From positions 1 to 61,601 of the forward strand of contig JAWCKG010000008.1 of NCBI GenBank assembly GCA_038852285.1: a stretch of 61,601 bases of DNA, read 5' to 3'. Made by a program: the position numbers and the translations under genes. Positions 17,186 through 61,370 of this stretch are shown here, piece after piece. The notes under the pieces are model-generated. The model was not told the DNA's origin. It saw only the letters and a program-made list of their open reading frames with translations, and ran no database searches. This DNA is from Candidatus Bathyarchaeia archaeon. GTDB lineage: Archaea > Thermoproteota > Bathyarchaeia > 40CM-2-53-6 > DTGE01. Within the stretch, counting starts at the first letter, position 1. Every line of letters begins with the position of its first letter.

Positions 17186-18703
17186 TTAAGCAATAAACTG
17201 ATACCCTTTCTGGATCTCTTGATAAACCCTCCAATATTTTTCCTGTAACACCCTATATTTTCCCCGGTCACGACCGCCCGGCTTAAACGTTTTCTTCGCT
17301 TTCACCATCTTTCTCACAGCCTTGGAAACGCTACTGAAGGCTTCGGAGGCTAACCCCCCCAAGATGGCTGAACCTAAAGCGGCGGCGTCGGACACCTTCA
17401 TCACGGTCATCGGAATCCCTGTCGCGGAGGCTTTGATGGAGTTCCACAAATCGCTTCTGCTTTCCCCGCCTACGAGGGATGCTCTTCTCACATGTATGCC
17501 AAGCTCCCGCAAAATGTTTATTGTAGCCCCGTATTGATAGGCTACTCCTTCCAAGATCGCGCGGATAAAATGCCTTTTCGTGTGCGCCAGTGTAAACCCG
17601 TAAAAGCACGCCTTAGCCTGATCGTTGAAAACAGGGGATTTTCCACCCATCGGGTATGGATAGTATAGGAGGCCTTCGGATCCCGGGGGAACTTTCCCCG
17701 CCTCTTCATCCATGATCGTGTAGGGGTCAGCTTGAACTTCAAAGGCTTTCTTCAATTCTTCATGGCAGAAGTGGTCTCTAAACCACTTTAAAGAGGCGCC
17801 TGTTGTTAAAATTAATCCTTCATACTCCCATCTATCGGGAACCACATGGCAGCAACAGTCAAACCTTCCCTTTAAATCCACGACAGGTTTCTCTAAGGGG
17901 GCTGTTAAAACTGTACCTGTTCCAGTGCCTATGTTTATCTCCCCTGGGTTGATCACGGCAGCCCCTAACGCCTCGCACGGCCGGTCTCCTCCTCCCCCAG
18001 CCACTGGTGTCCCAACATTAATCCCAGTAGCCTTGGAGGCGCTTTCCTGTACTTCACCCACTTTTTCCCATGAGTCTTTAACCTCAGGCAAGGCTTCAAC
18101 CGGGATTTCAAGGCCTTCACATATCTCATCACACCAAGCGCGCTGGTTTATGTCGAAGAGCATGGTTCTGGAAGCCATGGAGTAATCTGTAACGTACTGG
18201 CCGGTGAGCTTGAAGATTATGTAATCTTTGGGGAACAGGATTTTCTTCACCTTCGAGAAGATCCTGGGCTTTTCCTCCTTAAACCATAGTATCTTTGGCG
18301 CTGTGTAAAAGTAGTCGATGGGCAACCCTGTCTTCTTCACCACGTATTCCCGGGGGAGCTTCTCCTCGATTTCCTTAGCCTGCTTCAGAGTTCTTCGATC
18401 CAGCCATATGATGCTGTTGGTGAGAGTGGTCCCGTGGCGGTCGAGGAGCACAGGGGCCTCTCGCTGGGAATCAACACCCACGCCTAAGATGCTTTCAGCG
18501 TCTATTCCAGTTTCCTGAATGATCGCCTTAACGCTTTCCGCCGCCGCCCTCCACCAGTGCTCGGGGCTCTGCTCAGCCCAGGTGGGTTTCGGATAGTGGA
18601 CTGGGTAATCCTTCGATTTAGACGCTACGACCTCGCCGTTCAGGTTGAAGAGTATGGTTTTACAGGATGTGGTTCCAGCGTCGATTCCTAAAAGATGCTC
18701 TAA
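17186..18703 (-). CDS. xylulokinase-like FGGY kinase with no canonical start codon
   Basis: The homologous frame runs from 18703 to 17186 (505 residues, the usual FGGY length). It begins LEHLLGIDAGTTSCK, the essential phosphate loop, and includes GIGTGTGTVL-type and LVGGESRSDLW motifs. No ATG, GTG or TTG exists in this frame before a GTG at 18481, which would delete 74 residues and the phosphate loop. A strong AGGAGGGAGG lies directly before a TTA at 18703-18701, where the initiator should be. I annotate the full frame. Explanations are a G-to-A change of a TTG start, a sequencing error, or a non-canonical start. It follows the cupin gene by 19 bp. Confidence 0.75.
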   Translation of the reverse strand, partial: LEHLLGIDAGTTSCKTILFNLNGEVVASKSKDYPVHYPKPTWAEQSPEHWWRAAAESVKAIIQETGIDAESILGVGVDSQREAPVLLDRHGTTLTNSIIWLDRRTLKQAKEIEEKLPREYVVKKTGLPIDYFYTAPKILWFKEEKPRIFSKVKKILFPKDYIIFKLTGQYVTDYSMASRTMLFDINQRAWCDEICEGLEIPVEALPEVKDSWEKVGEVQESASKATGINVGTPVAGGGGDRPCEALGAAVINPGEINIGTGTGTVLTAPLEKPVVDLKGRFDCCCHVVPDRWEYEGLILTTGASLKWFRDHFCHEELKKAFEVQADPYTIMDEEAGKVPPGSEGLLYYPYPMGGKSPVFNDQAKACFYGFTLAHTKRHFIRAILEGVAYQYGATINILRELGIHVRRASLVGGESRSDLWNSIKASATGIPMTVMKVSDAAALGSAILGGLASEAFSSVSKAVRKMVKAKKTFKPGGRDRGKYRVLQEKYWRVYQEIQKGYQFIA

Positions 18704-18722
18704 AGACCCTCCCTCCTGGGGT

Positions 18723-19832
18723 TCAAGGTGATTGAGGTGGGTAGCAGCATACCACGTCTAGGGGTTCATGGCCATCGTTGATTACGTCGAAAGGTGGAAC
18801 AGATGCGTGTATGAACAGGGATTTCCCCCTCTTGATGGTCAGGTCGCCGAATGGGCCTGAAAGCCTTCCAGCGCCCTTTAACGTAACCGCGCAGAAGAAT
18901 CCTCGGTCACGGGATAATCGCATTCGATCAGTGATGTTCAACCTTGTTACCCAGAAAAATTTTTTCGCCTCATCTGGCAATAGCTTGAACTCCACGTTTT
19001 CACCCTCCTTCCTCACGGGGAACGGCTTCCTCATCACATAGTTGTGCAAGTAGTCTAGATCCATCTCGGAGAAGTTGGCTGACTCTAGGGCCAGGTCCCA
19101 TCCGAGGCCGAGGTTTCCCTCCTCCCTTCCGTAAGGGAATCCTTTCCATTCCGCTAGAATATTCCAGTCCGTGGGCTCCTGCGGCTCGAGGATGCATAGG
19201 CCGCTGCCAATGGAGTGCACTATTCCAGCCCTCAAGTAGAACACATCGTCAACCTTTGGATTAACTTCGTGGAGGTGTCTCCTCATCTCCTGAGCATCCT
19301 GGGCCTCCATCCACTTCCTGAAGGCCTCTTTCTCAACCGGCTTCTTCCACCCTATCCAAGCCTTAGCCCCCGGCCTAGTTCCAATGATGATCCATGACTC
19401 GTTTTTCCCGTAAGGAGAGTTCAAGTGTTCCTTTGAAAACTCCGGGGTGGGATGCCAGTGCACTGGGATATGGGAGCCTTCGCCAACATCGAAAATCTTG
19501 ACCAAAATCCCAAGGTTGGCTCCGAAGCGTTCATAATGCTTTTTACCCAGAGTTTCCTCCGGAAACTCCTCTAAAAGCCTTTTCAGCAAAATGACTTCTC
19601 CACTGGGAAGCTTTATCCTGCTGAAGCCTTTATCCGGTGGATTATCCCTTCCAGGGGTGACGGCCCTGTTCGTGGAGAATATCCACTCCTCCGACCTATA
19701 GTCGTCTCTCGGGTTTTCCTCCCCCATGAACTCGGCCCTTAGCTTCCCTCCATTATAGAAGTGTAGGAAGGTGTTCGGCTCGAGGTAGATGGGCTTTTCC
19801 AACAGCTTCTCCATTTCCCTCCTCAAAGCCAT
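18723..19832 (-). CDS. class I mannose-6-phosphate isomerase-like cupin
   Basis: 369 residues. The metal site is suggested by HIPVHWHPT and the downstream NESWIII, plus GIVHSIG in the second half, as in type I phosphomannose isomerases. A C-terminal jelly-roll domain ends in a stretch rich in Cys and Pro. These enzymes interconvert aldose and ketose phosphates; plant-type sugar specificity is broad. It lies directly upstream of the FGGY kinase in the same orientation, so both may act on one sugar. Confidence 0.8.
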   Translation of the reverse strand: MALRREMEKLLEKPIYLEPNTFLHFYNGGKLRAEFMGEENPRDDYRSEEWIFSTNRAVTPGRDNPPDKGFSRIKLPSGEVILLKRLLEEFPEETLGKKHYERFGANLGILVKIFDVGEGSHIPVHWHPTPEFSKEHLNSPYGKNESWIIIGTRPGAKAWIGWKKPVEKEAFRKWMEAQDAQEMRRHLHEVNPKVDDVFYLRAGIVHSIGSGLCILEPQEPTDWNILAEWKGFPYGREEGNLGLGWDLALESANFSEMDLDYLHNYVMRKPFPVRKEGENVEFKLLPDEAKKFFWVTRLNITDRMRLSRDRGFFCAVTLKGAGRLSGPFGDLTIKRGKSLFIHASVPPFDVINDGHEPLDVVCCYPPQSP

Positions 19833-19867: not shown

Positions 19868-21706
19868 TTAAACTATCTCCTCCAGCCCGATCTGAGAGAT
19901 CGTTTCTTTTTTAGGTATTCCCTCATGATCCCAGCCTCTAAGCTCATAATACTCGTCAAGCATCTCGTTTAAGTGGACAACTTGGCCTCTCGCTGGGCCC
20001 TCAGGCAAAGGCTCCTCCAAACACCTATAGGGCAACGTATCGTCCTTTCTGCTGAATCCCTCCCTTACGTTGAAAAGCCTTGAGAGGGTGATAACGCGAG
20101 CTCCTAACTTCTTCAACTCATCAGGATCCTTATACTCAAAGCCTGTGGCTGAGACGACCATCTGGTATACCTCCTTTAACTTCATCCCATGCAAGGTGAA
20201 GAAGCATAGAACACTTGAGTCCACCACGGCCTTCTCGTCCTGTCTGTCGATGGCCAGTTGAACCTTCGCCCTATCGTAGGACAGGGGGTCCGCGCCACCT
20301 CCGTATCCGCATAGCTCAACGCCCGCTGTGTACGCTCTCAAGTGACAGGCGCCTCTCTCCGATACGGCGTAGCATAACCCCATCCCCTGGGCAGCCCTCG
20401 GCTCATAGCCGGGCATTTCAAGACCCTTCACATGCATGGCGAATTTTTCGCTTCCCGGATACTTCTCCGCCAAACTTTTCACACCCATCTGGAGGGTTTT
20501 TCCCACCCCCTCACCTTTTCCGATGAGCTCCGTCAACATCACCACGGCCTCACCGTCGCCGAAGATGGGCTTAATGGTTAGATCCTCATTTTTCAAATAT
20601 CCCTTTTCGTACAGCTCCATGTAGAAGCCTATGATGTTTCCAACACTGATCGTATCTATCCCGTAATAGTCGCATAGATAATTGGCGTACGCGATGGCTT
20701 CCTTATCGGACACACCGCAGTTGCTGCCTAGGCTGAATATTGTCTCGTAATCTGGGCCGTCCACGTAAACCTCCTCGCCGCCCCGCTTCACCTTCATGAT
20801 TTTACTACACCTGATGTTGCAGCCTAGGCAGCAGGAGAAGTCCCTTAACCAAAGCTCGCTTCTATAAGATTCACCGGAGATCGTTTCGGCTCCCTCAAAC
20901 CTGCCCGTCTGAAAGTTCCTGGTTGGGAGGGCGCCTGTTTCATTTATGGTGAGGAGAATGTTGTCCGTTCCGTACATGGGCAGGCTTCGAACAGTGACCT
21001 CGTTCATTCTAAGCGTTCTGAGGGCGATCCACACCATCCGCTCGAACATGGATTCATCATGTACCTTAACGCCCTTGGAGCCTCTCATGGCTATGGCCTT
21101 CAGGTTTTTCGATCCCATGACGGCGCCTAGGCCCCCCCTCCCCGCTGATCGAAGGTTGCTGAATACAGGCGCTATTGGAGACATTCGCTCACCCGCGGGG
21201 CCTATTACGGCGACCTTAAAGTCTCCACCTAGCTCCTCTAACACCTTTCTCTCCGCGGCCGAGGTGCTCATACCCCACAGACTTTCACACCTTTTAACCG
21301 AAACATCCCCGTTGTCCACGATCAGCATTGAAGGATGCTCCGCCCTTCCCGTTATCACCATCGCGTCGTATCCTGAGAACTTTAACTCTGCCCCCAGCCC
21401 ACCTCCCATGTAAGAGTCGTTTATGGTTCCGGTTGCCGGGCTCTTAGACGCGACGCATAGCTTTTGGCAGGGCGCTATAGTTCCGTTTAAGGGTCCTGTG
21501 GCCAGCGCTAATATGTTCTCAGGGTCCAAGGGGTTTACACCAGGCTTCAACATCCTGTAGAGAAGCCATATAGCCAAGCCTTTCCCGCCTAAAAGTCTGT
21601 AAACGACACGTTCATCTAAGCGTTGTTCAACGAACTTTTCTTGGGTGAGGTTTACGGTTAAAATCCTATTCATGTATCCTCTTTTTTCCAGATTCATTTT
21701 AAACAC
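19868..21706 (-). CDS. aldehyde:ferredoxin oxidoreductase (tungsten-pterin AOR family)
   Basis: 612 residues, the normal length. Recognisable are the N-terminal LLGGKGLA region, the pterin-binding GRGGLGAVMGSKNLKA motif, and the first Cys group of the [4Fe-4S] site, CLGCNIRC. AORs oxidise aldehydes to acids and pass electrons to ferredoxin, and are oxygen-sensitive tungsten enzymes. The start overlaps by eight bases the end of the aldolase-ferredoxin gene, so the two are translationally coupled. The aldehyde is probably the product of that aldolase. Confidence 0.92.
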   Translation of the reverse strand: MFKMNLEKRGYMNRILTVNLTQEKFVEQRLDERVVYRLLGGKGLAIWLLYRMLKPGVNPLDPENILALATGPLNGTIAPCQKLCVASKSPATGTINDSYMGGGLGAELKFSGYDAMVITGRAEHPSMLIVDNGDVSVKRCESLWGMSTSAAERKVLEELGGDFKVAVIGPAGERMSPIAPVFSNLRSAGRGGLGAVMGSKNLKAIAMRGSKGVKVHDESMFERMVWIALRTLRMNEVTVRSLPMYGTDNILLTINETGALPTRNFQTGRFEGAETISGESYRSELWLRDFSCCLGCNIRCSKIMKVKRGGEEVYVDGPDYETIFSLGSNCGVSDKEAIAYANYLCDYYGIDTISVGNIIGFYMELYEKGYLKNEDLTIKPIFGDGEAVVMLTELIGKGEGVGKTLQMGVKSLAEKYPGSEKFAMHVKGLEMPGYEPRAAQGMGLCYAVSERGACHLRAYTAGVELCGYGGGADPLSYDRAKVQLAIDRQDEKAVVDSSVLCFFTLHGMKLKEVYQMVVSATGFEYKDPDELKKLGARVITLSRLFNVREGFSRKDDTLPYRCLEEPLPEGPARGQVVHLNEMLDEYYELRGWDHEGIPKKETISQIGLEEIV

Positions 21707-22964
21707 CTTTTATGGGCGCTGTCAGCAACGCGTCTGTGGGGCAGTATTCCACGCATCTCGGATTTCCTTTACACATGTCGCATATGAACGGGTTCTTGGC
21801 GTCGTCGTTCCAGCCCACCACTTTGAAGGGGCAGGATGCGACGCATTTCCTGCATCCCTTAGGCCCGATGCATCGCTCTACGATAAGCTCAACGTAGTTG
21901 AGCTCAGGATTAAAGGTCAACGCTTGGGTTGGACATGCATCCACACATTTCCCACACAGGGTGCATGGGAACGGCATAAACTTATCAGGCAGCTCAACGT
22001 CAACCCTGATCCTGCTCTTCTTTAAAGAAATTTCGCCTTCATGGGAAAAACTGCAGACTGCTTGACATTCCCTACACCCCACACAGTTCTTAGCCCTCAC
22101 AAGGAGGCGTACAGGCCCACGGTAAGGTGAGACGATATCCCTGACGCTTTTCCCTTCATGAACCACCATTCTCACGGATGAGACGAATGTCTTAGGGTCC
22201 TCAGCTTGAACAACTTGTCTACCGAACACCACGCCTGATCCCCCAGCCATTAAGGCTTCCTCAACGACCTCTAAAGCGTCCCTGAGGGTCCTGGCCTTCG
22301 CCCCCCCGAGGACGAGGACCGGGACACCCGCGGAGCTCACAGCCTTTCTAAAACTATCCACATCTCCTGTGTAAGCGGTTTTGATGGCGTCAGCCCCCGC
22401 TTCAACCGCTATTCTCATACCCACAGAGATGAGCTGAGCGTAGTTAGCCCCAGTAACCCTCTCCCCGAAAGGCAACGACTCCACGATGAAGGGGAGACCT
22501 AGCTTTTCGCACTCCCTGGCGAAAATGGATGTGAGCTGAAAGTTATAAGCCTCGGTTTCATCTTCTGAATGCCCGATAAAATAGTAGGTAACTATCCCCG
22601 AGGCTCCTAGGGACAGCGCTCCCTTAGCGTTAGCCACGGCTACCCTTTTTATGCTTCTAGCCGGTAGCGTGTAGGTTTTATCCCTGAACGCGTTAGTCCA
22701 GTCAGCCCTAACAAGGAGCGCTGGCGCTTTCCTCCCTTTGAACAGGTGGTTAAGCCTTCTAGCCTGGCCTGGGCTGAGCAGAACGGCGTCGGGCCTACCC
22801 TCTACCACTTTAATCAACGTTTCCTCCAAGTTTACAACTCCCTTTATGGGCCCGAGCATGAAACCGTGGTCAGCGGCAACTACAACGGCTTTACCATCTT
22901 CAGGATCGATGATTCGGCTTAACCTAATCTCTTTCCCGGCGTTCCTCAACGAGTTAGCCTCCAT
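21699..22964 (-). CDS. DhnA-type class I aldolase fused to a four-cluster ferredoxin
   Basis: 421 residues in two parts. Residues 1 to about 275 are a DhnA/archaeal FBP-aldolase TIM barrel with AADHG and the Schiff-base Lys in DAIKTAY. Residues about 292-421 carry four Cys groups (CVGCRECQAVC, CTLCGKCVDAC, CIGPKGCRKCVASC, CDMCKGNPRCVEYC) typical of [4Fe-4S] polyferredoxins such as AOR electron-transfer subunits. The gene overlaps the AOR gene by eight bases and the second aldolase by 11. I infer an aldolase that holds the electron acceptor of the AOR which oxidises its aldehyde product. Confidence 0.88.
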   Translation of the reverse strand: MEANSLRNAGKEIRLSRIIDPEDGKAVVVAADHGFMLGPIKGVVNLEETLIKVVEGRPDAVLLSPGQARRLNHLFKGRKAPALLVRADWTNAFRDKTYTLPARSIKRVAVANAKGALSLGASGIVTYYFIGHSEDETEAYNFQLTSIFARECEKLGLPFIVESLPFGERVTGANYAQLISVGMRIAVEAGADAIKTAYTGDVDSFRKAVSSAGVPVLVLGGAKARTLRDALEVVEEALMAGGSGVVFGRQVVQAEDPKTFVSSVRMVVHEGKSVRDIVSPYRGPVRLLVRAKNCVGCRECQAVCSFSHEGEISLKKSRIRVDVELPDKFMPFPCTLCGKCVDACPTQALTFNPELNYVELIVERCIGPKGCRKCVASCPFKVVGWNDDAKNPFICDMCKGNPRCVEYCPTDALLTAPIKGV

Positions 22965-23742
22965 GTATGATGCTCCACACGCTTCTCACATTCTCAGCGA
23001 ACCCGGCCGCCTGCAAAGTTTTTCCGCCAAGGATTACTCCAGCCGCGTTTGATTCAATGGCGCTATGCGCCAACGCAGTGGAGTCCGATAGATCGGAGAA
23101 ATCTTCCAACACCATTAAGGGCGCTTTGGCCAGCTCAACCAGCTCCTTAAACAAGCTTTCTCCCCCTTTCTTCATGGGCGCGGCTATAAGGTCTCCGCCA
23201 ACCTCAACCGCCTGTCTTACCCCTAGCTTCACACAGTCAAAGTAGTTTTCTCCCGTCACCCTACCTCCAACCGGCAGGATCTGAACAAGAAGGGGTAACC
23301 CATATTCTTCGCACGCCCTAGCCGTTGAGGCAAGAGCCTCCATGTTGAAAGCCTCATCTTCATCTCGCTCATACCCCACTATGAGATAAGCGGCGACGGC
23401 GTCTGCTCCATGCCTCAAAGCGTCCTCCGGCGTGACTGTGCTGACGTACCTTAAGTCCACGGCGGGTAAAATGTAGTCGCCTCCTCGATAGGCGTTGGTC
23501 CAATCGGACCTTACAATTAAGCTAGCACCCTCCCTACCTTTAATGCATTCCAGCAACCTATCAACCTGTCCTAACGAGAGTATGAACGCATCCACCATCC
23601 TCGAGGCTTTCATAACCTTGTTCAAGTCTTCCAATCCTTGGACACCGCCGAGCATCGATCCTAAATCAGCCTCTAAGATAACCCCCTTTCCATCAACAGG
23701 GTTTAACACATGGCTTAGGCGCAGCTCTTTTCCACCGTTCAA
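22954..23742 (-). CDS. degenerate DhnA-family aldolase paralogue
   Basis: 262 residues, aligning along its length with the aldolase half of the next gene (shared VRSDWTNAYR, GGRVTGENY, LGGKTLQAA). The catalytic positions are changed: AADHG reads EADLG and the Schiff-base segment DAIKTAY reads DLIAAPM. It therefore probably lacks aldolase activity and may be a structural partner or regulator of the active paralogue. It is the first gene of the three-gene unit and ends with an 11-bp overlap. Its upstream region has a TATA-like TTTATAAATT on the minus strand near 23773. Confidence 0.75.
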   Translation of the reverse strand: MNGGKELRLSHVLNPVDGKGVILEADLGSMLGGVQGLEDLNKVMKASRMVDAFILSLGQVDRLLECIKGREGASLIVRSDWTNAYRGGDYILPAVDLRYVSTVTPEDALRHGADAVAAYLIVGYERDEDEAFNMEALASTARACEEYGLPLLVQILPVGGRVTGENYFDCVKLGVRQAVEVGGDLIAAPMKKGGESLFKELVELAKAPLMVLEDFSDLSDSTALAHSAIESNAAGVILGGKTLQAAGFAENVRSVWSIIHGG

Positions 23743-24092: not shown

Positions 24093-25223
24093 ATGCGTGT
24101 CGCGTTATGTTATAATAAAAAGCCAGAGTCAAGTTCTCAATCCCAGGATGAGTCAGAGGACGAATCGGATCCACCGCCCGGCAGAGTTTTCCCAGAAGCC
24201 TACGCTGAGCTGGACGACGAGCATACCGTTAAAGCGGTTGCAAAAGCGCTGAGCAGAGCCCACGAGGTGCAACTAGTTGAAGCGGATGAAAAGGCCTACT
24301 CAAAATTTCTTTATAACCGCCCGGATATAGTATTCAATATTGCGGAGGGCTTTAACGGGCCCCACCGGGAGGCGTTTATTCCATCGATCCTGGAGTTTCT
24401 TCAAATTCCCTACACGGGGTCGGATCCATTAACCCTCTCTATATGTTTAGATAAGGTATTAACGAAGCAGCTCCTCAACTACCATGGTATACCGACACCA
24501 GAGTTCACCTCAGCCACCTCAATTCAAGAGATTCAGGCCACTGTGAAAGCTTGGAGAAATTATCCATGCATCGTGAAACCTGTTCACGAAGGCTCCAGCA
24601 TAGGGGTGTGGAGCAGCTCAATAGCCGAAGACCCTGAGCAGCTTTCAGCTCAAATGAGAAAAAGCATCACCTTATACAAGCAGCCTGTCCTCGTGGAACG
24701 ACTCCTCCTTGGAAGGGAGTTCACGGTCGGCGTGCTGGGAAACGGAGACCAAGCGGAAATCCTCCCAGTAGTGGAGATTTGCTTCGACAACCTACCGAAG
24801 ACCTCGAGGCCCATATACTCCTACGAAGCCAAGTGGATTTGGGATACTCCGAAAAACCCGTTAAACATCTTCAAATGCCCCGCCCCAATCGATGAGGCCC
24901 TATACGAAAGCATCAGGGGCGTGGCGTTAAAGGCTTACAGGTCTTTAAGGTGCCGTGACTGGGCGAGGATCGATATCCGATTAGACAGGGAAGGACGGCC
25001 AAACATCCTTGAGGTGAACCCGCTTCCAGGCATCCTACCGGACCCAGAGGATAATTCATGCATGCCCAAGGCCGCTAGGGCGGCTGGCATAGAATACGAA
25101 GACCTCATCCTAACTGTTCTACGCATCGCCTGCGAAAGATACGGAATAAAAACGGAAACCCCGAAGGATGGAAAAGTCAGTTCTCAAAATGGCTTAAATG
25201 AATTAAGTCGTCGAGGCGTATGA
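24093..25223 (+). CDS. ATP-grasp ligase, D-Ala-D-Ala ligase-like
   Basis: 376 residues. ATP-grasp signatures include IVKPVHEGSSIGV, VERLLLGREFTVGV and the metal-binding ILEVNPLPG. A Ser/Glu/Asp-rich insertion sits near residues 11-30. The family joins a carboxylate to an amine with ATP. Archaea lack peptidoglycan, so D-Ala-D-Ala ligase is an unlikely true function. Its ATGA overlap with the aminomutase gene indicates tight coupling, so beta-lysine or a similar beta-amino acid is a plausible substrate. Confidence 0.83.
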   Translation: MRVALCYNKKPESSSQSQDESEDESDPPPGRVFPEAYAELDDEHTVKAVAKALSRAHEVQLVEADEKAYSKFLYNRPDIVFNIAEGFNGPHREAFIPSILEFLQIPYTGSDPLTLSICLDKVLTKQLLNYHGIPTPEFTSATSIQEIQATVKAWRNYPCIVKPVHEGSSIGVWSSSIAEDPEQLSAQMRKSITLYKQPVLVERLLLGREFTVGVLGNGDQAEILPVVEICFDNLPKTSRPIYSYEAKWIWDTPKNPLNIFKCPAPIDEALYESIRGVALKAYRSLRCRDWARIDIRLDREGRPNILEVNPLPGILPDPEDNSCMPKAARAAGIEYEDLILTVLRIACERYGIKTETPKDGKVSSQNGLNELSRRGV

Positions 25224-26356
25224 AATTAGTCGGACAAATGGAATTGAACGCCCAGGATAAAACAGCCCTATTCCAAAACGTTCCGGAAAGCGATTGGAAA
25301 GACTGGCGATGGCAGATGCGCCACAGGTTAAAAACCCTAGAAGAGCTTGAAAAATACTTCACCTTAACCGAAGAGGAGGTGAAAGGCGTAGAGTTAGCTA
25401 CAAGTAGAAAAACGCTGCCAATGGCTATCTCACCTTACTTCGCGTCACTAATGGACCCTGGAGACCCCCAGTGCCCCCTGAGGAAACAGGGGGTCCCGAC
25501 AGAGAAGGAAGGCATGTTCCAGCCCTCGGATATGAACGACCCCTTAGGCGAGGAAAGGGACTCCCCCGTCCCCCACCTTGTCCACCGCTATCCCGACAGG
25601 GTCCTCCTACTCGTAACAAACAACTGCGCCATGTTCTGCCGTTACTGCACTCGTCGACGAATCGTTGGGCGAATCGAAGAGGCGGGCATAGAGGAGCTGG
25701 AGCCCGCGTTCCAATACATTGAGGGGAAGAGGTCTGTTCGAGACGTGTTGATCTCAGGAGGTGACCCCCTCACGTTGTCCACTGAGAAACTGGAGCGAAT
25801 CATTCGGAGAATTCGGGAGATAAAACACGTGGAGATCATTAGAATAGGAACAAGGGTGCCCGTCACACTACCCATGAGAATTGACGAACAGTTAACATCC
25901 ATGCTTAAGAAATATCACCCCCTCTGGATGAGCCTCCACTTCACCCACCCCCGCGAGATCACCCCGCAGGTGGAGCAGGCATGCCGCAGACTCGCAGACG
26001 CCGGCGTACCCCTCGGAAGCCAAACCGTTCTCCTTAAGGGAATCAACGACTCTCCGCTCATCATCAGGAAGCTGATGCATAAACTGCTCACGCTCAGGGT
26101 GAGACCCTACTACCTCTATCAATGCGACCTCGCCCAAGGCATCTCCCACTTTCAAACCCCGGTGGAAACAGGTTTAAAGATAATGGAAAGCCTGAGGGGA
26201 CATACATCCGGCTACGCAGTCCCCACATACGTGATAGACGCCCCGGGGGGAGGGGGAAAAATACCAATAGCACCAAACTACTTAATCTCGTACGGAAACG
26301 GAAGGGCTGTGATGAGAAACTACCGGGGCGAAGTATACGAGTATAAAGAGGCTTAA
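25220..26356 (+). CDS. lysine 2,3-aminomutase-family radical SAM enzyme (KamA/AblA-like)
   Basis: 378 residues. Radical SAM CxxxCxxC is at Cys136, Cys140 and Cys143 (NNCAMFCRYCTRR). The PLP-binding Lys lies in APGGGGKIP, and Asp residues in QCDLAQG and VIDAPGG match those contacting the lysine amino groups. The family moves the alpha-amino group of lysine to the beta carbon, using [4Fe-4S], SAM and PLP. It overlaps the upstream ATP-grasp gene by four bases, and a second ATP-grasp gene follows 39 bp later. Confidence 0.9.
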   Translation: MKLVGQMELNAQDKTALFQNVPESDWKDWRWQMRHRLKTLEELEKYFTLTEEEVKGVELATSRKTLPMAISPYFASLMDPGDPQCPLRKQGVPTEKEGMFQPSDMNDPLGEERDSPVPHLVHRYPDRVLLLVTNNCAMFCRYCTRRRIVGRIEEAGIEELEPAFQYIEGKRSVRDVLISGGDPLTLSTEKLERIIRRIREIKHVEIIRIGTRVPVTLPMRIDEQLTSMLKKYHPLWMSLHFTHPREITPQVEQACRRLADAGVPLGSQTVLLKGINDSPLIIRKLMHKLLTLRVRPYYLYQCDLAQGISHFQTPVETGLKIMESLRGHTSGYAVPTYVIDAPGGGGKIPIAPNYLISYGNGRAVMRNYRGEVYEYKEA

Positions 26357-26395
26357 ATCGTGCTCATCTAAGGGTTATAAGACGGGCATTAAATA

Positions 26396-27898
26396 ATGTT
26401 TGTAGCCGTCTTATACAATCAGCCTCAACCCCTCCCATACGGCGAGGAAAAGGATAAGATATCCGAGGACGCGGTGTTAGAAGAGGTTTCCGACGTACAG
26501 CAAGCCCTCCAAAACCTAGGACACCAAGCCATCCTGATGCCTTTAACAAACGATGTGCCAAAGCTCGTTAAGGAGCTCTCCTCTACACCGCTGGACTGCG
26601 TCTTTAACCTATGCGAAGGCGCTTACGGGTGCAGCGTCCATGAAATGAACGTCCCATCTATCCTAGAGTTGCTGAGAATCCCTTACACAGGCTCCCCTTC
26701 AATGGCCTTAGGATGCTGCCTAGACAAGGCGACGGCAAAACGCATACTCATCGGCGCAGGTCTCCCCACTCCCAGCTTTACTGTTGCCCAGACATCTGTT
26801 ATGCCTGAGAAGATCCCCTCGTACCCTTTGATCGTCAAGCCAATCAGGGAAGATGGGGGTAGAGGCGTCTCTAGGGAAAGCGTCGTATACGATGAGGCGG
26901 CGCTCAAGGAGAGGATCCGATACGTGTGGGAGAAATACCGTCAACCCGCCTTGGTGGAAAGATTCATCGAGGGAAGAGAGCTGAACGTTTCCTTGATCGG
27001 CAACAGCTCTCCGGAAACGTTGGCCATATCCGAGGTGGAGTTCTCAGGGCTTCAAGACGGATCCCCGAGAATCCTCACCTACGATGGAAAGTGGCTTGAA
27101 GAAAGCCGCGAATACGCCTGGACGCCTGTTACCTGCCCAGCGAGCGTAGAAGATTCGTTAAGAGGAAGGCTTGAAGAAATCTCGAAAAAAGCCTTTCAAA
27201 TCCTCGGTTGCATGGGATACGCGAGGATAGATTTCAGAGTTGATCTTAAAGGGCGACCGTATCTCATAGACGTAAATCCTAACCCTGACATTTCAAGAAA
27301 GGCTGGGTTCGCCAACTCAGCTGAGAAAGCCGGCGTCCCCTACCCTCAGCTAATACAGAGGATAATGGACCTCGCCATCGAACGGCATTCAACCCTCAAA
27401 CCGATTCAGTTCGTTAAGATTCGAAAGATGGTGGAAACCGACGTTCCAATAGTGCTAAACCTTTTAGATATGATTCCGGCGTTCAAGAGGATGGAAGTCA
27501 CCGTTGCTAGGGAGGTCATCGAAGCGTACGTCAAAAAGCCTGAGGGCGGAGACTACTCCATCTACATCGCCGAGCACCCTGAGAGCCAAGTTGTCGGATA
27601 TGTTTGCTTCGGCCCGACCCCTCTAACAGAGGGAACCTACGACATCTACTGGGTCGCGGTAGAACCCAGACTCCATGGCCAAGGCGTCGGAGGAAAACTA
27701 TTAAGGTTCGCTGAACAGCTCATAAGGAGTCGGGGAGGAAGAAAAATCATCGTCGAAACCTCTTCGAAAGAAGAATATGAGGCGGCTCGAAACCTATACG
27801 AAGCGCACGGGTTTAAGGAGGTGGCTAAAATATCGAGCTTCTACGCTAAGGGAGACGACAAAATAATCTACGAAAAGAACCTATCAAACAATAATTAG
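26396..27898 (+). CDS. ATP-grasp ligase fused to GNAT acetyltransferase
   Basis: 500 residues. Residues 1 to about 335 form an ATP-grasp domain (IVKPIREDGGRGVS, VERFIEGRELNVS, LIDVNPNPD). Residues about 340-500 form a GNAT domain with the acetyl-CoA loop VEPRLHGQGVGGKLL. The fusion predicts ligation and N-acetylation of one molecule. In methanogens a GNAT (AblB) acetylates beta-lysine made by AblA to give an osmolyte; here two ligases are added. The product is unknown. Confidence 0.83.
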   Translation: MFVAVLYNQPQPLPYGEEKDKISEDAVLEEVSDVQQALQNLGHQAILMPLTNDVPKLVKELSSTPLDCVFNLCEGAYGCSVHEMNVPSILELLRIPYTGSPSMALGCCLDKATAKRILIGAGLPTPSFTVAQTSVMPEKIPSYPLIVKPIREDGGRGVSRESVVYDEAALKERIRYVWEKYRQPALVERFIEGRELNVSLIGNSSPETLAISEVEFSGLQDGSPRILTYDGKWLEESREYAWTPVTCPASVEDSLRGRLEEISKKAFQILGCMGYARIDFRVDLKGRPYLIDVNPNPDISRKAGFANSAEKAGVPYPQLIQRIMDLAIERHSTLKPIQFVKIRKMVETDVPIVLNLLDMIPAFKRMEVTVAREVIEAYVKKPEGGDYSIYIAEHPESQVVGYVCFGPTPLTEGTYDIYWVAVEPRLHGQGVGGKLLRFAEQLIRSRGGRKIIVETSSKEEYEAARNLYEAHGFKEVAKISSFYAKGDDKIIYEKNLSNNN

Positions 27899-57672: not shown

Positions 57673-59256
57673 TTGACTTCTCTCAATGTTGACAGCAAGG
57701 TTATCGACAAGATAATTGAATCCTCGAATAAAACGGAGGACGGCCGCGTCATCGGGTTGCTGATAGGATCCGTAGAAGGCGACGAAATACTCGTCCAAGA
57801 TGCGATTCAAACAAGGCATCTGCAGGAGGAGCGGGGCATTAAGATACATCCGAACGACATAGCTGAGATCGCTCAGAAACTTTTGGATAAGAAAATAAAG
57901 GGAAATGTGATCGGCTGGTTCCACACCCATCCGGGCTACGGAGCCTACATGTCAGATGTTGACGTTCAAACTCAAAAGGTTTTACAGCAGTTCTCACCTT
58001 TCATGGTCTCCCTCATAGTCGATCCGAAGAAAAAGGAGGCTAAGTTTTTTACCTTAAATGAAGATAATAAGGTTAAGGAGTTTAGAGGTGGAAAGTTGAA
58101 CCGCGTAGGCAAAGGTGAGGGCGTCATCCAACGGTTGCGGGAAGGCGCATCAGCGGCGCCAGCTCCCTACCCCACAGCCCCCACCAAACCACCCCTTTCG
58201 AAAAGGCAAGTTTACCTACTTATCACTACCTTAGTGCTGGTAGGCGTGTTATTAGCCGGCATATTCACCGTATTCGCCTTAAAGGCTCCGGCTGCGTACA
58301 CCCTTCCCACCATTCAGCACACTCCGGTTCAAAGGGGGGAGGTGGGAAAGGAAGTTACATTGAAAGCCAAGGTGACAGGGGGAGAGGGTGGGATCCACAA
58401 CGTCACATTATCCTACGAGTGGAGTGAGTGGACGCTTACCAGTGAAGGAACGCTCTCAACCATCGAGCATCCGTGGAAAACCGCGTTAATGCTTCTCGTC
58501 GCCGCAGGCGGCGACGAATACGCTTACACAATCCCCTCCAGCGAGGTCGCGGGCGACGTAGACTACTTCATAACCGCCTTCGACAAAGCAGGACACACAG
58601 TCAGCACCTTAATATACACCATTAAGGTAGCCGACTTCCAAATTGAAGCTGAAACGGATACGTTGATTGTTCACTTAGGCGAAGCCCAACGAACCAGCGT
58701 CGTCGTGAAACCCATAAACGAATTCCAGTCACCCGTCGAGCTGAGAACTGAGAAAACACCCTATGGAATCCAAGCCACCGTTAAACCCAGTAGTGTCACT
58801 CCGCCTAAAGGAGGGGAGGTTAAGGCCACCCTTGAAATCTCCGCCGCCGATTACCCCGGAACTTTCAGAGGCCAATTCGACCTTTTAATCTACGGGAAAT
58901 CAGGTAAAGCCGAGCATAAAACCTCGATCACCGTCGTAGTCCCATACTACGAGGTCACCGTGTCACCCAGCTCCATCACAATCACCAAGGGTCAGACAGC
59001 CACCTACGATATTAAACTCAACCCATCCCAACACTTCACCAAGGAGGTGGGCTTCACTCTATCCGGGCTACCATCCGAGGAAATAGGATGGGAGATAGCG
59101 TTAAAAGGAAACAAGATCAACATCGCCTCAGCCACCGATCTAGCCTTGAAAATCACCACCACGCAGAAGACCCCGACAGGAACCTACAACTTGACGTTGA
59201 AAATCGAGGGAGGTGGCATCAAAAACCAGATAACCCTCACCTTGACGATAAAATAA
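57673..59256 (+). CDS. membrane-anchored Rpn11-like JAMM metalloprotease with beta-rich ectodomain
   Basis: 527 residues, TTG start behind GGTGGAGGAGG. Residues 1-140 are a JAB/MPN+ domain with a complete JAMM motif (His84, His86, Ser94, Asp97 in FHTHPGYGAYMSDVD; Glu38 the likely catalytic base). The motif closely matches proteasomal Rpn11 (HSHPGFGCWLSSVD). One helix follows at about 179-203. Residues about 210-527 are beta-rich, with repeated VSPSSITITKGQ- and VKPSSVTPPKGG-type segments typical of Ig-like or NEW3-like surface modules. The protease side should be cytoplasmic. It probably trims and removes the modifier encoded next. Confidence 0.88.
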   Translation: MTSLNVDSKVIDKIIESSNKTEDGRVIGLLIGSVEGDEILVQDAIQTRHLQEERGIKIHPNDIAEIAQKLLDKKIKGNVIGWFHTHPGYGAYMSDVDVQTQKVLQQFSPFMVSLIVDPKKKEAKFFTLNEDNKVKEFRGGKLNRVGKGEGVIQRLREGASAAPAPYPTAPTKPPLSKRQVYLLITTLVLVGVLLAGIFTVFALKAPAAYTLPTIQHTPVQRGEVGKEVTLKAKVTGGEGGIHNVTLSYEWSEWTLTSEGTLSTIEHPWKTALMLLVAAGGDEYAYTIPSSEVAGDVDYFITAFDKAGHTVSTLIYTIKVADFQIEAETDTLIVHLGEAQRTSVVVKPINEFQSPVELRTEKTPYGIQATVKPSSVTPPKGGEVKATLEISAADYPGTFRGQFDLLIYGKSGKAEHKTSITVVVPYYEVTVSPSSITITKGQTATYDIKLNPSQHFTKEVGFTLSGLPSEEIGWEIALKGNKINIASATDLALKITTTQKTPTGTYNLTLKIEGGGIKNQITLTLTIK

Positions 59257-59310
59257 AATGGAGGAAGTGAAAATAAGCTTGATATTAGAAAACGAAATGG
59301 GGAGGTCTCA

Positions 59311-59562
59311 ATGAAGCTGTTTGTTCAAGCGCCGATTGGGCCCCAGACGGGGTTAGCTGAAATAGAGGTCATACCAGACCACACCATCGGAGAGATTAAA
59401 CAGCAGGTCTGCGCCTCCTTCGGCGTCGACCCTTCAACGGTGGCCCTCATGTACGGGGGTATGGTCCTCGACGAGGGAACCACCGTCTCCCATGCTGGTA
59501 TACCTGAAAACGCCCAGCTGGCCCTCATGCCGTACAATATAATCGGCGGCAAGCCTAATTGA
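59311..59562 (+). CDS. ubiquitin-like modifier with masked di-glycine
   Basis: 83 residues of beta-grasp type, starting MKLFVQAPIG (ubiquitin MQIFVKTLTG), then HTIGEIKQQV and LMYGGMVLDEGTTVSHAGI, which align with ubiquitin TIENVKAKI and LIFAGKQLEDGRTLSDYNI. The C-terminus IIGGKPN has Gly79-Gly80 followed by three residues, so processing is needed to expose Gly-Gly, as for eukaryotic ubiquitin precursors. The upstream JAMM protein is the obvious candidate. It overlaps the E2 gene by four bases. Confidence 0.9.
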   Translation: MKLFVQAPIGPQTGLAEIEVIPDHTIGEIKQQVCASFGVDPSTVALMYGGMVLDEGTTVSHAGIPENAQLALMPYNIIGGKPN

Positions 59563-60125
59563 ACCTGCAACTACTATACGATGAAAAAAAGTTCGTCAAC
59601 CATCAATTCCCCACAGTCACGGCGATAGGGGACCCTCCAACCATATACGAAGGTCTACTACGCTGCGAGAAAGGGGAAGTAAAAAAACTTGCTGAAAAAG
59701 ACATATGGCCATTCACCGAGTACGTGAGCTGGCATAAATTTAAGCTGGAGCTTCCCAACGATTATCCGCTTACCCCTCCAAAGGCCACATGGCTAACGGA
59801 CATAGCCCACCCGAACATCGTCCCAAACATACCTGGAGCGGTGTGCATCTCCATTCTAGGTGAAGGTTGGAGACCAGACCTAAAGATCGTTTCCGTAATT
59901 AACGCCTTATACTACCTCCTTTCAGACCCAAATCCAGACAACGTCTTCGACCATCCAAGGTGCCTAGAGGCCGCGGAAATATGTAGAAAATACGGATTTC
60001 CTAAGCATAGGATTGAAAGGAAAGAAGAGGAAACAGCCAAGTTTAACATCATACCCATCCCAACCGCCACGCCGAAGACCCAGGACGTAGGCGACATCCT
60101 TCGGTTCAAGCTTAGGGACAAGTAA
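59559..60125 (+). CDS. E2 ubiquitin-conjugating enzyme-like protein
   Basis: 188 residues, TTG start overlapping the modifier's stop. A UBC fold is supported by LPNDYPLTPPKATW, the HPN motif at 84-86, the active-site Cys96 in GAVCISILGEGW, and LLSDPNPDNVF, all in the eukaryotic order and spacing. The last 40 residues after the fold are polar. It should accept the modifier from the E1 encoded 15 bp downstream. Position and motifs favour a true E2 over an RWD-type relative. Confidence 0.93.
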   Translation: MNLQLLYDEKKFVNHQFPTVTAIGDPPTIYEGLLRCEKGEVKKLAEKDIWPFTEYVSWHKFKLELPNDYPLTPPKATWLTDIAHPNIVPNIPGAVCISILGEGWRPDLKIVSVINALYYLLSDPNPDNVFDHPRCLEAAEICRKYGFPKHRIERKEEETAKFNIIPIPTATPKTQDVGDILRFKLRDK

Positions 60126-60140
60126 TGCAGAGGAAAATCG

Positions 60141-61370
60141 ATGAAAGTAGAGGTTGAAATTCCCCGTTTAAAGAAAATCATCATCGATGTGGACGAAGAA
60201 TCGACGGTAGAGCAGCTGAAGAAAAGGCTATGCGAAGAGTTATCCCTAGAAAGCTCCTTAACCACGATCCTTCAAGGAGGAAAACCCATACCGGAAGGTC
60301 AGCAGTTAAAGAATCAGAATGAGGGGAAATTTGAGCTAGACTACCTTTGGTCCAGGCAGGCGCTAATATGGGGCTTAGAGGGGCAAAAACTTCTTCGAGA
60401 ATCTAAGGTTTTCATCGCGGGGGCAGGGGCCTTGGGAAACGAGACAGCTAAAAACCTAGCATTAATGGGAGTTGGCCATATAACCATAGCCGACCACGAT
60501 AAGGTGGAAACGTCAAACCTGAGTCGATGCGTCTTCTTCGATAAAAAGGATGTGGGGAAGTTCAAGGCCCACACCCTAGCTCAGAAGCTGGGAAAAAAGT
60601 TTCCCTACGTGAAGTTCAAGGCCTACAACATGAGGGTGGAGGAAGTGCCTGAGGAGGAGTTCCTTTCCTCTAACGTTTTAATCAGCGGCCTAGACAACCT
60701 CACCTCCAGAGCCTACATGGCCTCTCTTGCTAACAGGTATAACATACCTCTCGTGGATGGAGGCATGGTCGGTAACCTATGTAGAGTTCAGAGCTTCAGC
60801 CCCGGACAATCACCATGCCCCATATGCATGGTACCCGTACTGGATTACGGTCAGCTTACAGGGTTAAGAAATCCATGCTCAGCCCCTCTGGAGGAGACAA
60901 CCATCCCATCCTTCATAACAGCCACCTCCCTCGTGTCTGCCGTTCAAAGCTCCGAAGCCGTAAAGCTAATACTCAAGGGGGCTAACAGTCTCCGCGAAGA
61001 TTTGAACCTCCGCCCGTTGGAGGGGGTTCTCATCATCGATTTACAGTTTAACAGGTTTTCACTCATGCCTCTCAAGAAAAATCCAAACTGCTTCGTGTGC
61101 GGGATCCGGGGGATCGCGAAGAACCACGTAAGGATTCTTGAACTTAACTTCAACGGGCAACCCGTTCCATACCGTCTATTAATCGAGAAAATTAAGGAGA
61201 AGCTGGAAGCTGAAGAGCTCCACCTATACGAGAGAAAAAATGGACGTTACATCAATTTAGTGAAGAATCAACGTGCAGATGAGAAAAGAATAAACACAGG
61301 AAGCTACATACACGTTATATTTAAAAACAGAAAGGACGAATATAGGGAGACAATTATCAAGCTCATATAG
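60141..61370 (+). CDS. E1-like activating enzyme with N-terminal ubiquitin-like domain
   Basis: 409 residues in three parts. Residues 1 to about 66 are ubiquitin-like (STVEQLKKRL, ILQGGKPIPEGQQL). The adenylation domain has the ATP loop AGAGALGNETAKNLALMG, Cys pairs CPIC and CFVC for zinc, and the probable thioester Cys in RNPCSAPLEET before IPSFITATSL. The C-terminal about 80 residues are of unclear fold, perhaps a ubiquitin-fold domain that binds E2. Free-standing ThiF/MoeB proteins lack the N-terminal domain. The next gene begins 9 bp later. Confidence 0.9.
   Translation: MKVEVEIPRLKKIIIDVDEESTVEQLKKRLCEELSLESSLTTILQGGKPIPEGQQLKNQNEGKFELDYLWSRQALIWGLEGQKLLRESKVFIAGAGALGNETAKNLALMGVGHITIADHDKVETSNLSRCVFFDKKDVGKFKAHTLAQKLGKKFPYVKFKAYNMRVEEVPEEEFLSSNVLISGLDNLTSRAYMASLANRYNIPLVDGGMVGNLCRVQSFSPGQSPCPICMVPVLDYGQLTGLRNPCSAPLEETTIPSFITATSLVSAVQSSEAVKLILKGANSLREDLNLRPLEGVLIIDLQFNRFSLMPLKKNPNCFVCGIRGIAKNHVRILELNFNGQPVPYRLLIEKIKEKLEAEELHLYERKNGRYINLVKNQRADEKRINTGSYIHVIFKNRKDEYRETIIKLI

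Follow-up and report, generated by a model that had tools for sequence, protein, structure and literature searches.

A class I aldolase fused to an AOR-type polyferredoxin in a conserved archaeal gene cassette with a tungsten aldehyde oxidoreductase and a pseudo-aldolase

In the 61,601 nucleotides of Candidatus Bathyarchaeia archaeon DNA analysed here (the window), a single gene encodes a class I aldolase of the DhnA type joined to a four-cluster ferredoxin, and this gene lies between one for the catalytic subunit of a tungsten aldehyde oxidoreductase (AOR) and one for an aldolase paralogue lacking the catalytic lysine (Table 1). The gene structure of this cassette, its conservation and its monophyly are established, as are the retention of the Schiff-base and tungsten-site residues and the homology of the ferredoxin to AOR small subunits. 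We propose that the three products may form an archaeal enzyme that splits a ketose phosphate and oxidises the resulting aldehyde on the attached AOR, a reading to which we give an even chance of being right. The parts of the cassette belong to known families and their combination is new: literature searches found no aldolase-AOR or aldolase-ferredoxin fusion, a review of AOR/WOR enzymes does not mention an aldolase, and to our knowledge no enzyme with this layout has been described.

Table 1. Features of the cassette and of the two genes downstream of it, in window coordinates
Feature	Coordinates	Strand	Remarks
FGGY carbohydrate kinase	17186..18481	-	XylB 324 bits, below cut-off
Mannose-6-phosphate-isomerase-like cupin	18723..19832	-	~35 nt downstream of AOR; PF21621 24.3 bits, just under the 27-bit cut-off
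Tungsten AOR catalytic subunit	19868..21697	-	ATG start preferred; ORF extends to GTG 21706
Fusion gene, DhnA-type class I aldolase + four-cluster AorA-type ferredoxin	21699..22964	-	421 aa, single uninterrupted ORF
Fe-S domain, residues 287-418	21711..22106	-	16 Cys for four [4Fe-4S] clusters, AOR small-subunit type
Aldolase domain, residues 8-279	22128..22943	-	Asp32, Lys195 (codon 22382-22380), G220-G221, G248-R249, loop 86-103
Standalone DhnA paralogue, pseudo-aldolase	22954..23742	-	Ala187 at the Schiff-base Lys position, phosphate motifs lost

An earlier, sequence-only reading of the window had seen in one gene the fusion of a DhnA-type aldolase carrying a Schiff-base lysine with a four-cluster ferredoxin. 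All of this was confirmed: the uninterrupted frame recurs in 14 intact copies from 12 archaeal genomes (48-61% identity), in the alignment Lys195 stands opposite Lys184, the Schiff-base residue of MJ0400, and beyond a short linker the second domain carries its 16 cysteines. Pfam and NCBIfam models assign the second domain to the four-cluster ferredoxins. In Pfam the first domain falls into the DeoC/DhnA aldolases (PF01791, E 2e-33), and in NCBIfam the fusion reaches 205 bits with the ADH-synthase model NF005556, under its 241-bit cut-off, remaining likewise under the curated equivalog cut-offs of TIGR01949 (170 of 299 bits) and NF040816 (157 of 430 bits). Among solved structures, the best sequence match of the aldolase part is the ADH synthase MJ0400 (2qjg, E 2e-43), and the top fold matches of the AF2 model of the fusion (pLDDT 84.0, pTM 0.72) are the same ADH synthase in 2qji, 2qjh and 2qjg (TM 0.88 of target and E 7e-23 for 2qji). 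On this model the fused aldolase domain is a predicted TIM barrel of the ADH synthase type.

AorA-type subunits are present in only a few AOR clades. The four best PDB matches of the fused Fe-S domain are all AOR small subunits (8c0z_C, E 1.2e-20; 6x1o_B, 5.8e-20; 6x6u_B, 6.4e-20; 9mqx_E, 2.3e-18), and 15 of its cysteines are invariant across the 14 sequences, with C337 kept in at least 90%. The C-terminal filament helix of the Aromatoleum aromaticum subclade is absent, the chain stopping ~13 residues past the last cysteine, and the AF2 model has no C-terminal helix. In the AOR of A. aromaticum, clusters FS1/FS2 of AorA connect to the AorB cluster at 11.9 Å, and AorA-type subunits take electrons from the tungsten site of AOR across four clusters (PMC10413684). 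Being homologous to these subunits, the fused ferredoxin should dock on AOR alike and so bring the aldolase into the complex; a physical aldolase-AOR complex is thus supported by homology. The view that the fused half is the electron-transfer partner of AOR is supported both by its resemblance to the small subunits and by the AOR gene that always adjoins it.

The AOR gene matches PF02730 (E 9e-69) and PF01314 (E 6e-134), and among its best solved relatives are 1aor (E 1e-142), followed by 9mqx, 9g7j and 8c0z. For the roles of individual residues in Pyrococcus AOR, as in MJ0400 and the T. tenax FBP aldolase, we assume here what is held for these families. Equivalents of Cys288/291/295/494, Glu313 and His448 are kept in the window AOR and in every complete cassette AOR; these proteins retain the residues needed for aldehyde oxidation and are predicted to be of the aldehyde-oxidising AOR/WOR type. 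Glu332 and His383, presumably ligands of the bridging iron in the Pyrococcus homodimer, are replaced in all cassette AORs covering those positions, and 8c0z likewise lacks Pyrococcus-type iron-bridge ligands. Fusion and AOR genes had been thought to overlap; they are indeed directly adjacent, but an overlap of 8 nt arises only with the GTG start at 21706. The ATG at 21697 is 1 nt past the fusion stop, behind the ribosome-binding-like AAAAGGTG, which makes abutting genes the likelier arrangement. When 39 AORs are placed in a tree, those of the 14 cassettes group as one clade (SH-aLRT 100). The genomes examined have several AORs each; in those with a cassette, no other inspected AOR gene has a DhnA gene beside it, and three other AORs come with a separate ferredoxin subunit (L071, L073, L075). 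The cassette neighbourhoods inspected revealed no recognisable FAD/NAD subunit, which makes ferredoxin the likely acceptor.

Within the fused barrel, Asp32, GG220/221 and GR248/249 are kept in all 14 fusions, and the Schiff-base lysine on strand 6 in 12. The other two have glutamate there; they are second cassette copies from two genomes of one genus (L032:1946-3175, minus strand; L033:10787-12016, plus strand), and at least these copies cannot do Schiff-base chemistry. With a dN/dS of 0.024 for their aldolase domains they are strongly constrained, so they are not decaying and their chemistry must differ. Moreover, Tyr153 of MJ0400 (Tyr146 of the T. tenax FBP aldolase), which we take to be the general acid/base of these enzymes, is replaced in every fusion, and acid/base catalysis must consequently differ as well. 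A clade-specific loop follows strand 3 (residues 86-103, with R86, D88, W89, R94, Y98, L100, P101 and R103 invariant); the AF2 model, good elsewhere, has its lowest confidence in this loop and shows it as disordered. The suggestion that an aldehyde released by aldol cleavage is oxidised in the same complex gains from the resemblance between the fused ferredoxin and AOR small subunits and from the ferredoxin's constant position beside AOR, but in its plain form it runs against the missing tyrosine and the glutamate variants, the main reasons why our confidence goes no further than even. The loss of the tyrosine in all fusions, as in LsrF (with no tyrosine in the aligned stretch), the loop, disordered yet with invariant residues and suggesting a rebuilt active-site chemistry, and the constraint on the glutamate copies, which counts for a chemistry other than retro-aldol cleavage, would all suit a barrel that is catalytic through Lys195 in another Schiff-base reaction of a phosphorylated keto compound (such as LsrF-like C-C cleavage, isomerisation or dehydration), with AOR using a different or later product. 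We regard this as unlikely, given that the fusion as a whole matches ADH synthase far better than LsrF (152 versus 79 bits) and that its phosphate-site residues are those of aldolases of the dihydroxyacetone phosphate (DHAP) type.

The third gene overlaps the fusion gene by 11 nt (ATGGAGGCTAA). In all 14 cassette paralogues the Schiff-base lysine is alanine and the phosphate-binding motif is lost, whereas the predicted fold is intact in the AF2 model (pLDDT 84.3, pTM 0.88). By its residues the paralogue is a pseudo-aldolase without the catalytic lysine, and it is probably a structural partner of the fusion. The sequence-only reading had caught the fusion/AOR pair and missed both this invariably lysine-less paralogue and the isomerase and kinase genes downstream. 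All parts of the cassette are under purifying selection, dN/dS in six close pairs being 0.024-0.092 for the fused aldolase, 0.13-0.19 for the Fe-S domain, 0.05-0.09 for AOR and 0.13-0.33 for the paralogue; the fused aldolase is the most constrained part in five of the six pairs, and most or second-most overall. Between the three genes, pairwise distances show a correlation of ~0.92, as expected for co-inherited genes. Related DhnA enzymes are decamers. Such large rings, together with a partner that is lysine-less in all cassettes and two fusions that are lysine-less too, could mean that barrel and dead paralogue serve mainly as a scaffold or substrate-binding device that assembles or gates AOR, any aldolase catalysis being vestigial; however, the strong constraint on the aldolase domain, and the retention of lysine, aspartate and both phosphate motifs in 12 of 14 fusions, render this decidedly improbable.

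In the ketose phosphate-splitting enzyme that we propose, the AOR catalytic subunit would pair with the AorA-type four-cluster ferredoxin bearing the class I aldolase at its N-terminus, and the live aldolase domain would have the dead paralogue as its partner. A phosphorylated ketose, perhaps produced in the window genome by the cupin isomerase and the FGGY kinase encoded downstream, would bind Lys195 as a Schiff base and split into DHAP and an aldehyde. The tungsten site of the attached AOR would turn this aldehyde into the acid, with electrons passing from the [4Fe-4S] cluster of AOR itself through the four tethered clusters to free ferredoxin. The physical complex, the partner role of the pseudo-aldolase, retro-aldol activity, the identity of the aldehyde and its transfer by proximity are points that we infer. 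A fuller version, advanced more tentatively and in our view rather less than an even bet, has an aldolase/pseudo-aldolase hetero-oligomer on AOR turning ketose phosphate into DHAP, acid and reduced ferredoxin with no free aldehyde, the L032 and L033 copies having been re-tooled by the change from lysine to glutamate.

In aldolase-dehydrogenase channelling, as found in DmpFG and BphI-BphJ, a pyruvate aldolase works with an NAD/CoA-acylating dehydrogenase; the working is similar, an aldolase being tied to the oxidiser of the released aldehyde, but these proteins are non-homologous and use neither tungsten nor ferredoxin. Fucose/rhamnose-type pathways employ an isomerase, a kinase, a class II aldolase and a lactaldehyde dehydrogenase, steps that succeed one another just as we suggest for the window operon, whereas in the cassette the aldolase is of class I and fused to a redox subunit, and AOR replaces the NAD-linked dehydrogenase. 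With MJ0400 (2qjg, 2qjh, 2qji) and the archaeal class I FBP aldolase (1ojx, 1w8s) the fusion has in common the barrel fold, the Schiff-base lysine, the aspartate and the phosphate motifs; unlike them it is ferredoxin-linked, lacks Tyr153/146, has an extra conserved loop and stays below the NCBIfam cut-offs. Sampled standalone enzymes of the ADH synthase/FBP aldolase type group apart in the aldolase tree. AOR enzymes are widespread in anaerobes, and few have a known physiological aldehyde; by connecting one AOR clade with a specific upstream reaction, the covalent fusion with an aldolase opens the substrate of that clade to testing. AorAB(C) of A. aromaticum (8c0z; PMC10413684), WOR5 (6x1o, 6x6u) and 9mqx likewise combine AOR with a four-cluster polyferredoxin, both parts being homologous to those of the cassette, which differs from them in the N-terminal aldolase of its polyferredoxin, in the added pseudo-aldolase gene and in that no FAD/NAD subunit was recognised. 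If the proposal is true, the cassette would give the known channelling complexes of aldolase and dehydrogenase a counterpart based on tungsten and ferredoxin, would clearly exemplify an aldolase retained with a dead paralogue, and would show how uncultured archaea draw electrons from sugars at the ferredoxin level.

On the same strand of the window, the genes read as isomerase, kinase, aldolase and AOR. The cupin, which also matches TIGR00218 below its cut-off (E 7.5e-11), is a possible aldose-ketose isomerase. The kinase frame (17186-18715, minus strand) is open upstream and encodes the missing N-terminus (LLGIDAGTT...) with no ATG, GTG or TTG before the GTG at 18481, pointing to an unusual start codon or a base error. 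Farther along the window there are a sugar-type ABC transporter, four xylose-isomerase-like barrels, a dehydrogenase, a second FGGY-type gene and a PfkB kinase. Beside the cassette in the Brockarchaeota-like genomes L010 and L011, and facing away from it (L010:2409-6201; L011:1903-6176), stand a second AOR, a class II aldolase scoring above the PRK08660 cut-off and a relative of lactate racemase (3 bits under the LarA cut-off in L010), with an IolO-like epimerase also near. This pairing of AOR with two unrelated aldolases supports an AOR that consumes an aldolase product. Neighbouring sugar genes vary between lineages, so that a single conserved sugar pathway could not be reconstructed from the cassette neighbours and no substrate can be assigned from context. 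Acid reduction is uphill under most conditions, and it is very unlikely that the cassette runs in reverse, AOR reducing an acid with low-potential ferredoxin and the aldolase trapping the aldehyde with DHAP to yield a sugar or precursor. ADH synthase relatives do act in biosynthesis and AOR catalysis is reversible (PMC12096430), but nearby genes for sugar transport, kinases and glycosidases speak for breakdown and the genome has a separate ADH-synthase-like gene. That copy (L035) lies among aromatic-pathway-like genes, as judged by eye, and the fusion was accordingly rejected as the cell's ADH synthase.

Other neighbourhoods gave further observations. AOR and a class II aldolase also occur together in another genome (G064, L049), and in four genomes (G009:C42, G041:C22, G033:C57, G057:C47) a gene of the lactate-racemase family lies ~1.5 kb from a different AOR type. 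Two genera of one family have a DUF6785/DUF6784 protein, possibly a transporter, next to the cassette (L015:13218-15251; L033:7874-9913). On the plus strand of the window, positions 24093-27898 encode in a row a D-Ala-D-Ala-ligase-like ATP-grasp protein, a lysine-2,3-aminomutase-like radical SAM protein and a second ATP-grasp fused to a GNAT domain, and positions 57673-61370 a ubiquitin-type run of JAB protease, ubiquitin-like protein, E2 (UQ_con) and an E1-like ThiF protein, whose ubiquitin-like N-terminus was guessed from sequence.

Sought in other genomes, as the sequence-only reading had suggested, the fusion adjoins an AOR gene (full or contig-truncated) in all 14 copies from the 12 genomes, each associated with a DhnA paralogue. 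The order is always standalone DhnA, fusion and AOR; in B26-2 it is deduced from three genes on the ends of two contigs (L018/L082, L009/L081). Hosts are Bathyarchaeota B24 and B26-2, a Brockarchaeota MAG and its relatives, a Thermoprotei MAG and other members of the phylum. Occurrence is patchy, with the fusion in 10 of 398 genomes sampled across the phylum, in 3 of 257 of the class once weak matches are set aside, in four of seven in the order of G041 and in four of 12 in the class of G007. A peptide-pattern scan of the collection was moderately sensitive, missing several copies caught by whole-genome searches, and does not imply restriction to these archaea. The aldolase domain alone, searched against the 398 genomes, retrieved nothing but fusions at identities of at least 50%, then cassette paralogues at 39-42% and then standalone enzymes at 34-36%; it brought up no separated close relative of the fused aldolase and no separate halves unlinked to AOR genes, which would have spoken against the sequence-only reading. 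That two genes were joined by a frameshift or by the assembly, a reading for which no supporting point was found, has a negligible probability, since 14 intact copies with the same order in 12 genomes exclude chance or artefact and the lack of a separated relative excludes a frameshift. A broken cassette (L017:1588-3233, plus strand; up to 71% identity to the window aldolase) lies on a contig binned with Phycisphaerae, which is probably a misbinned archaeal contig.
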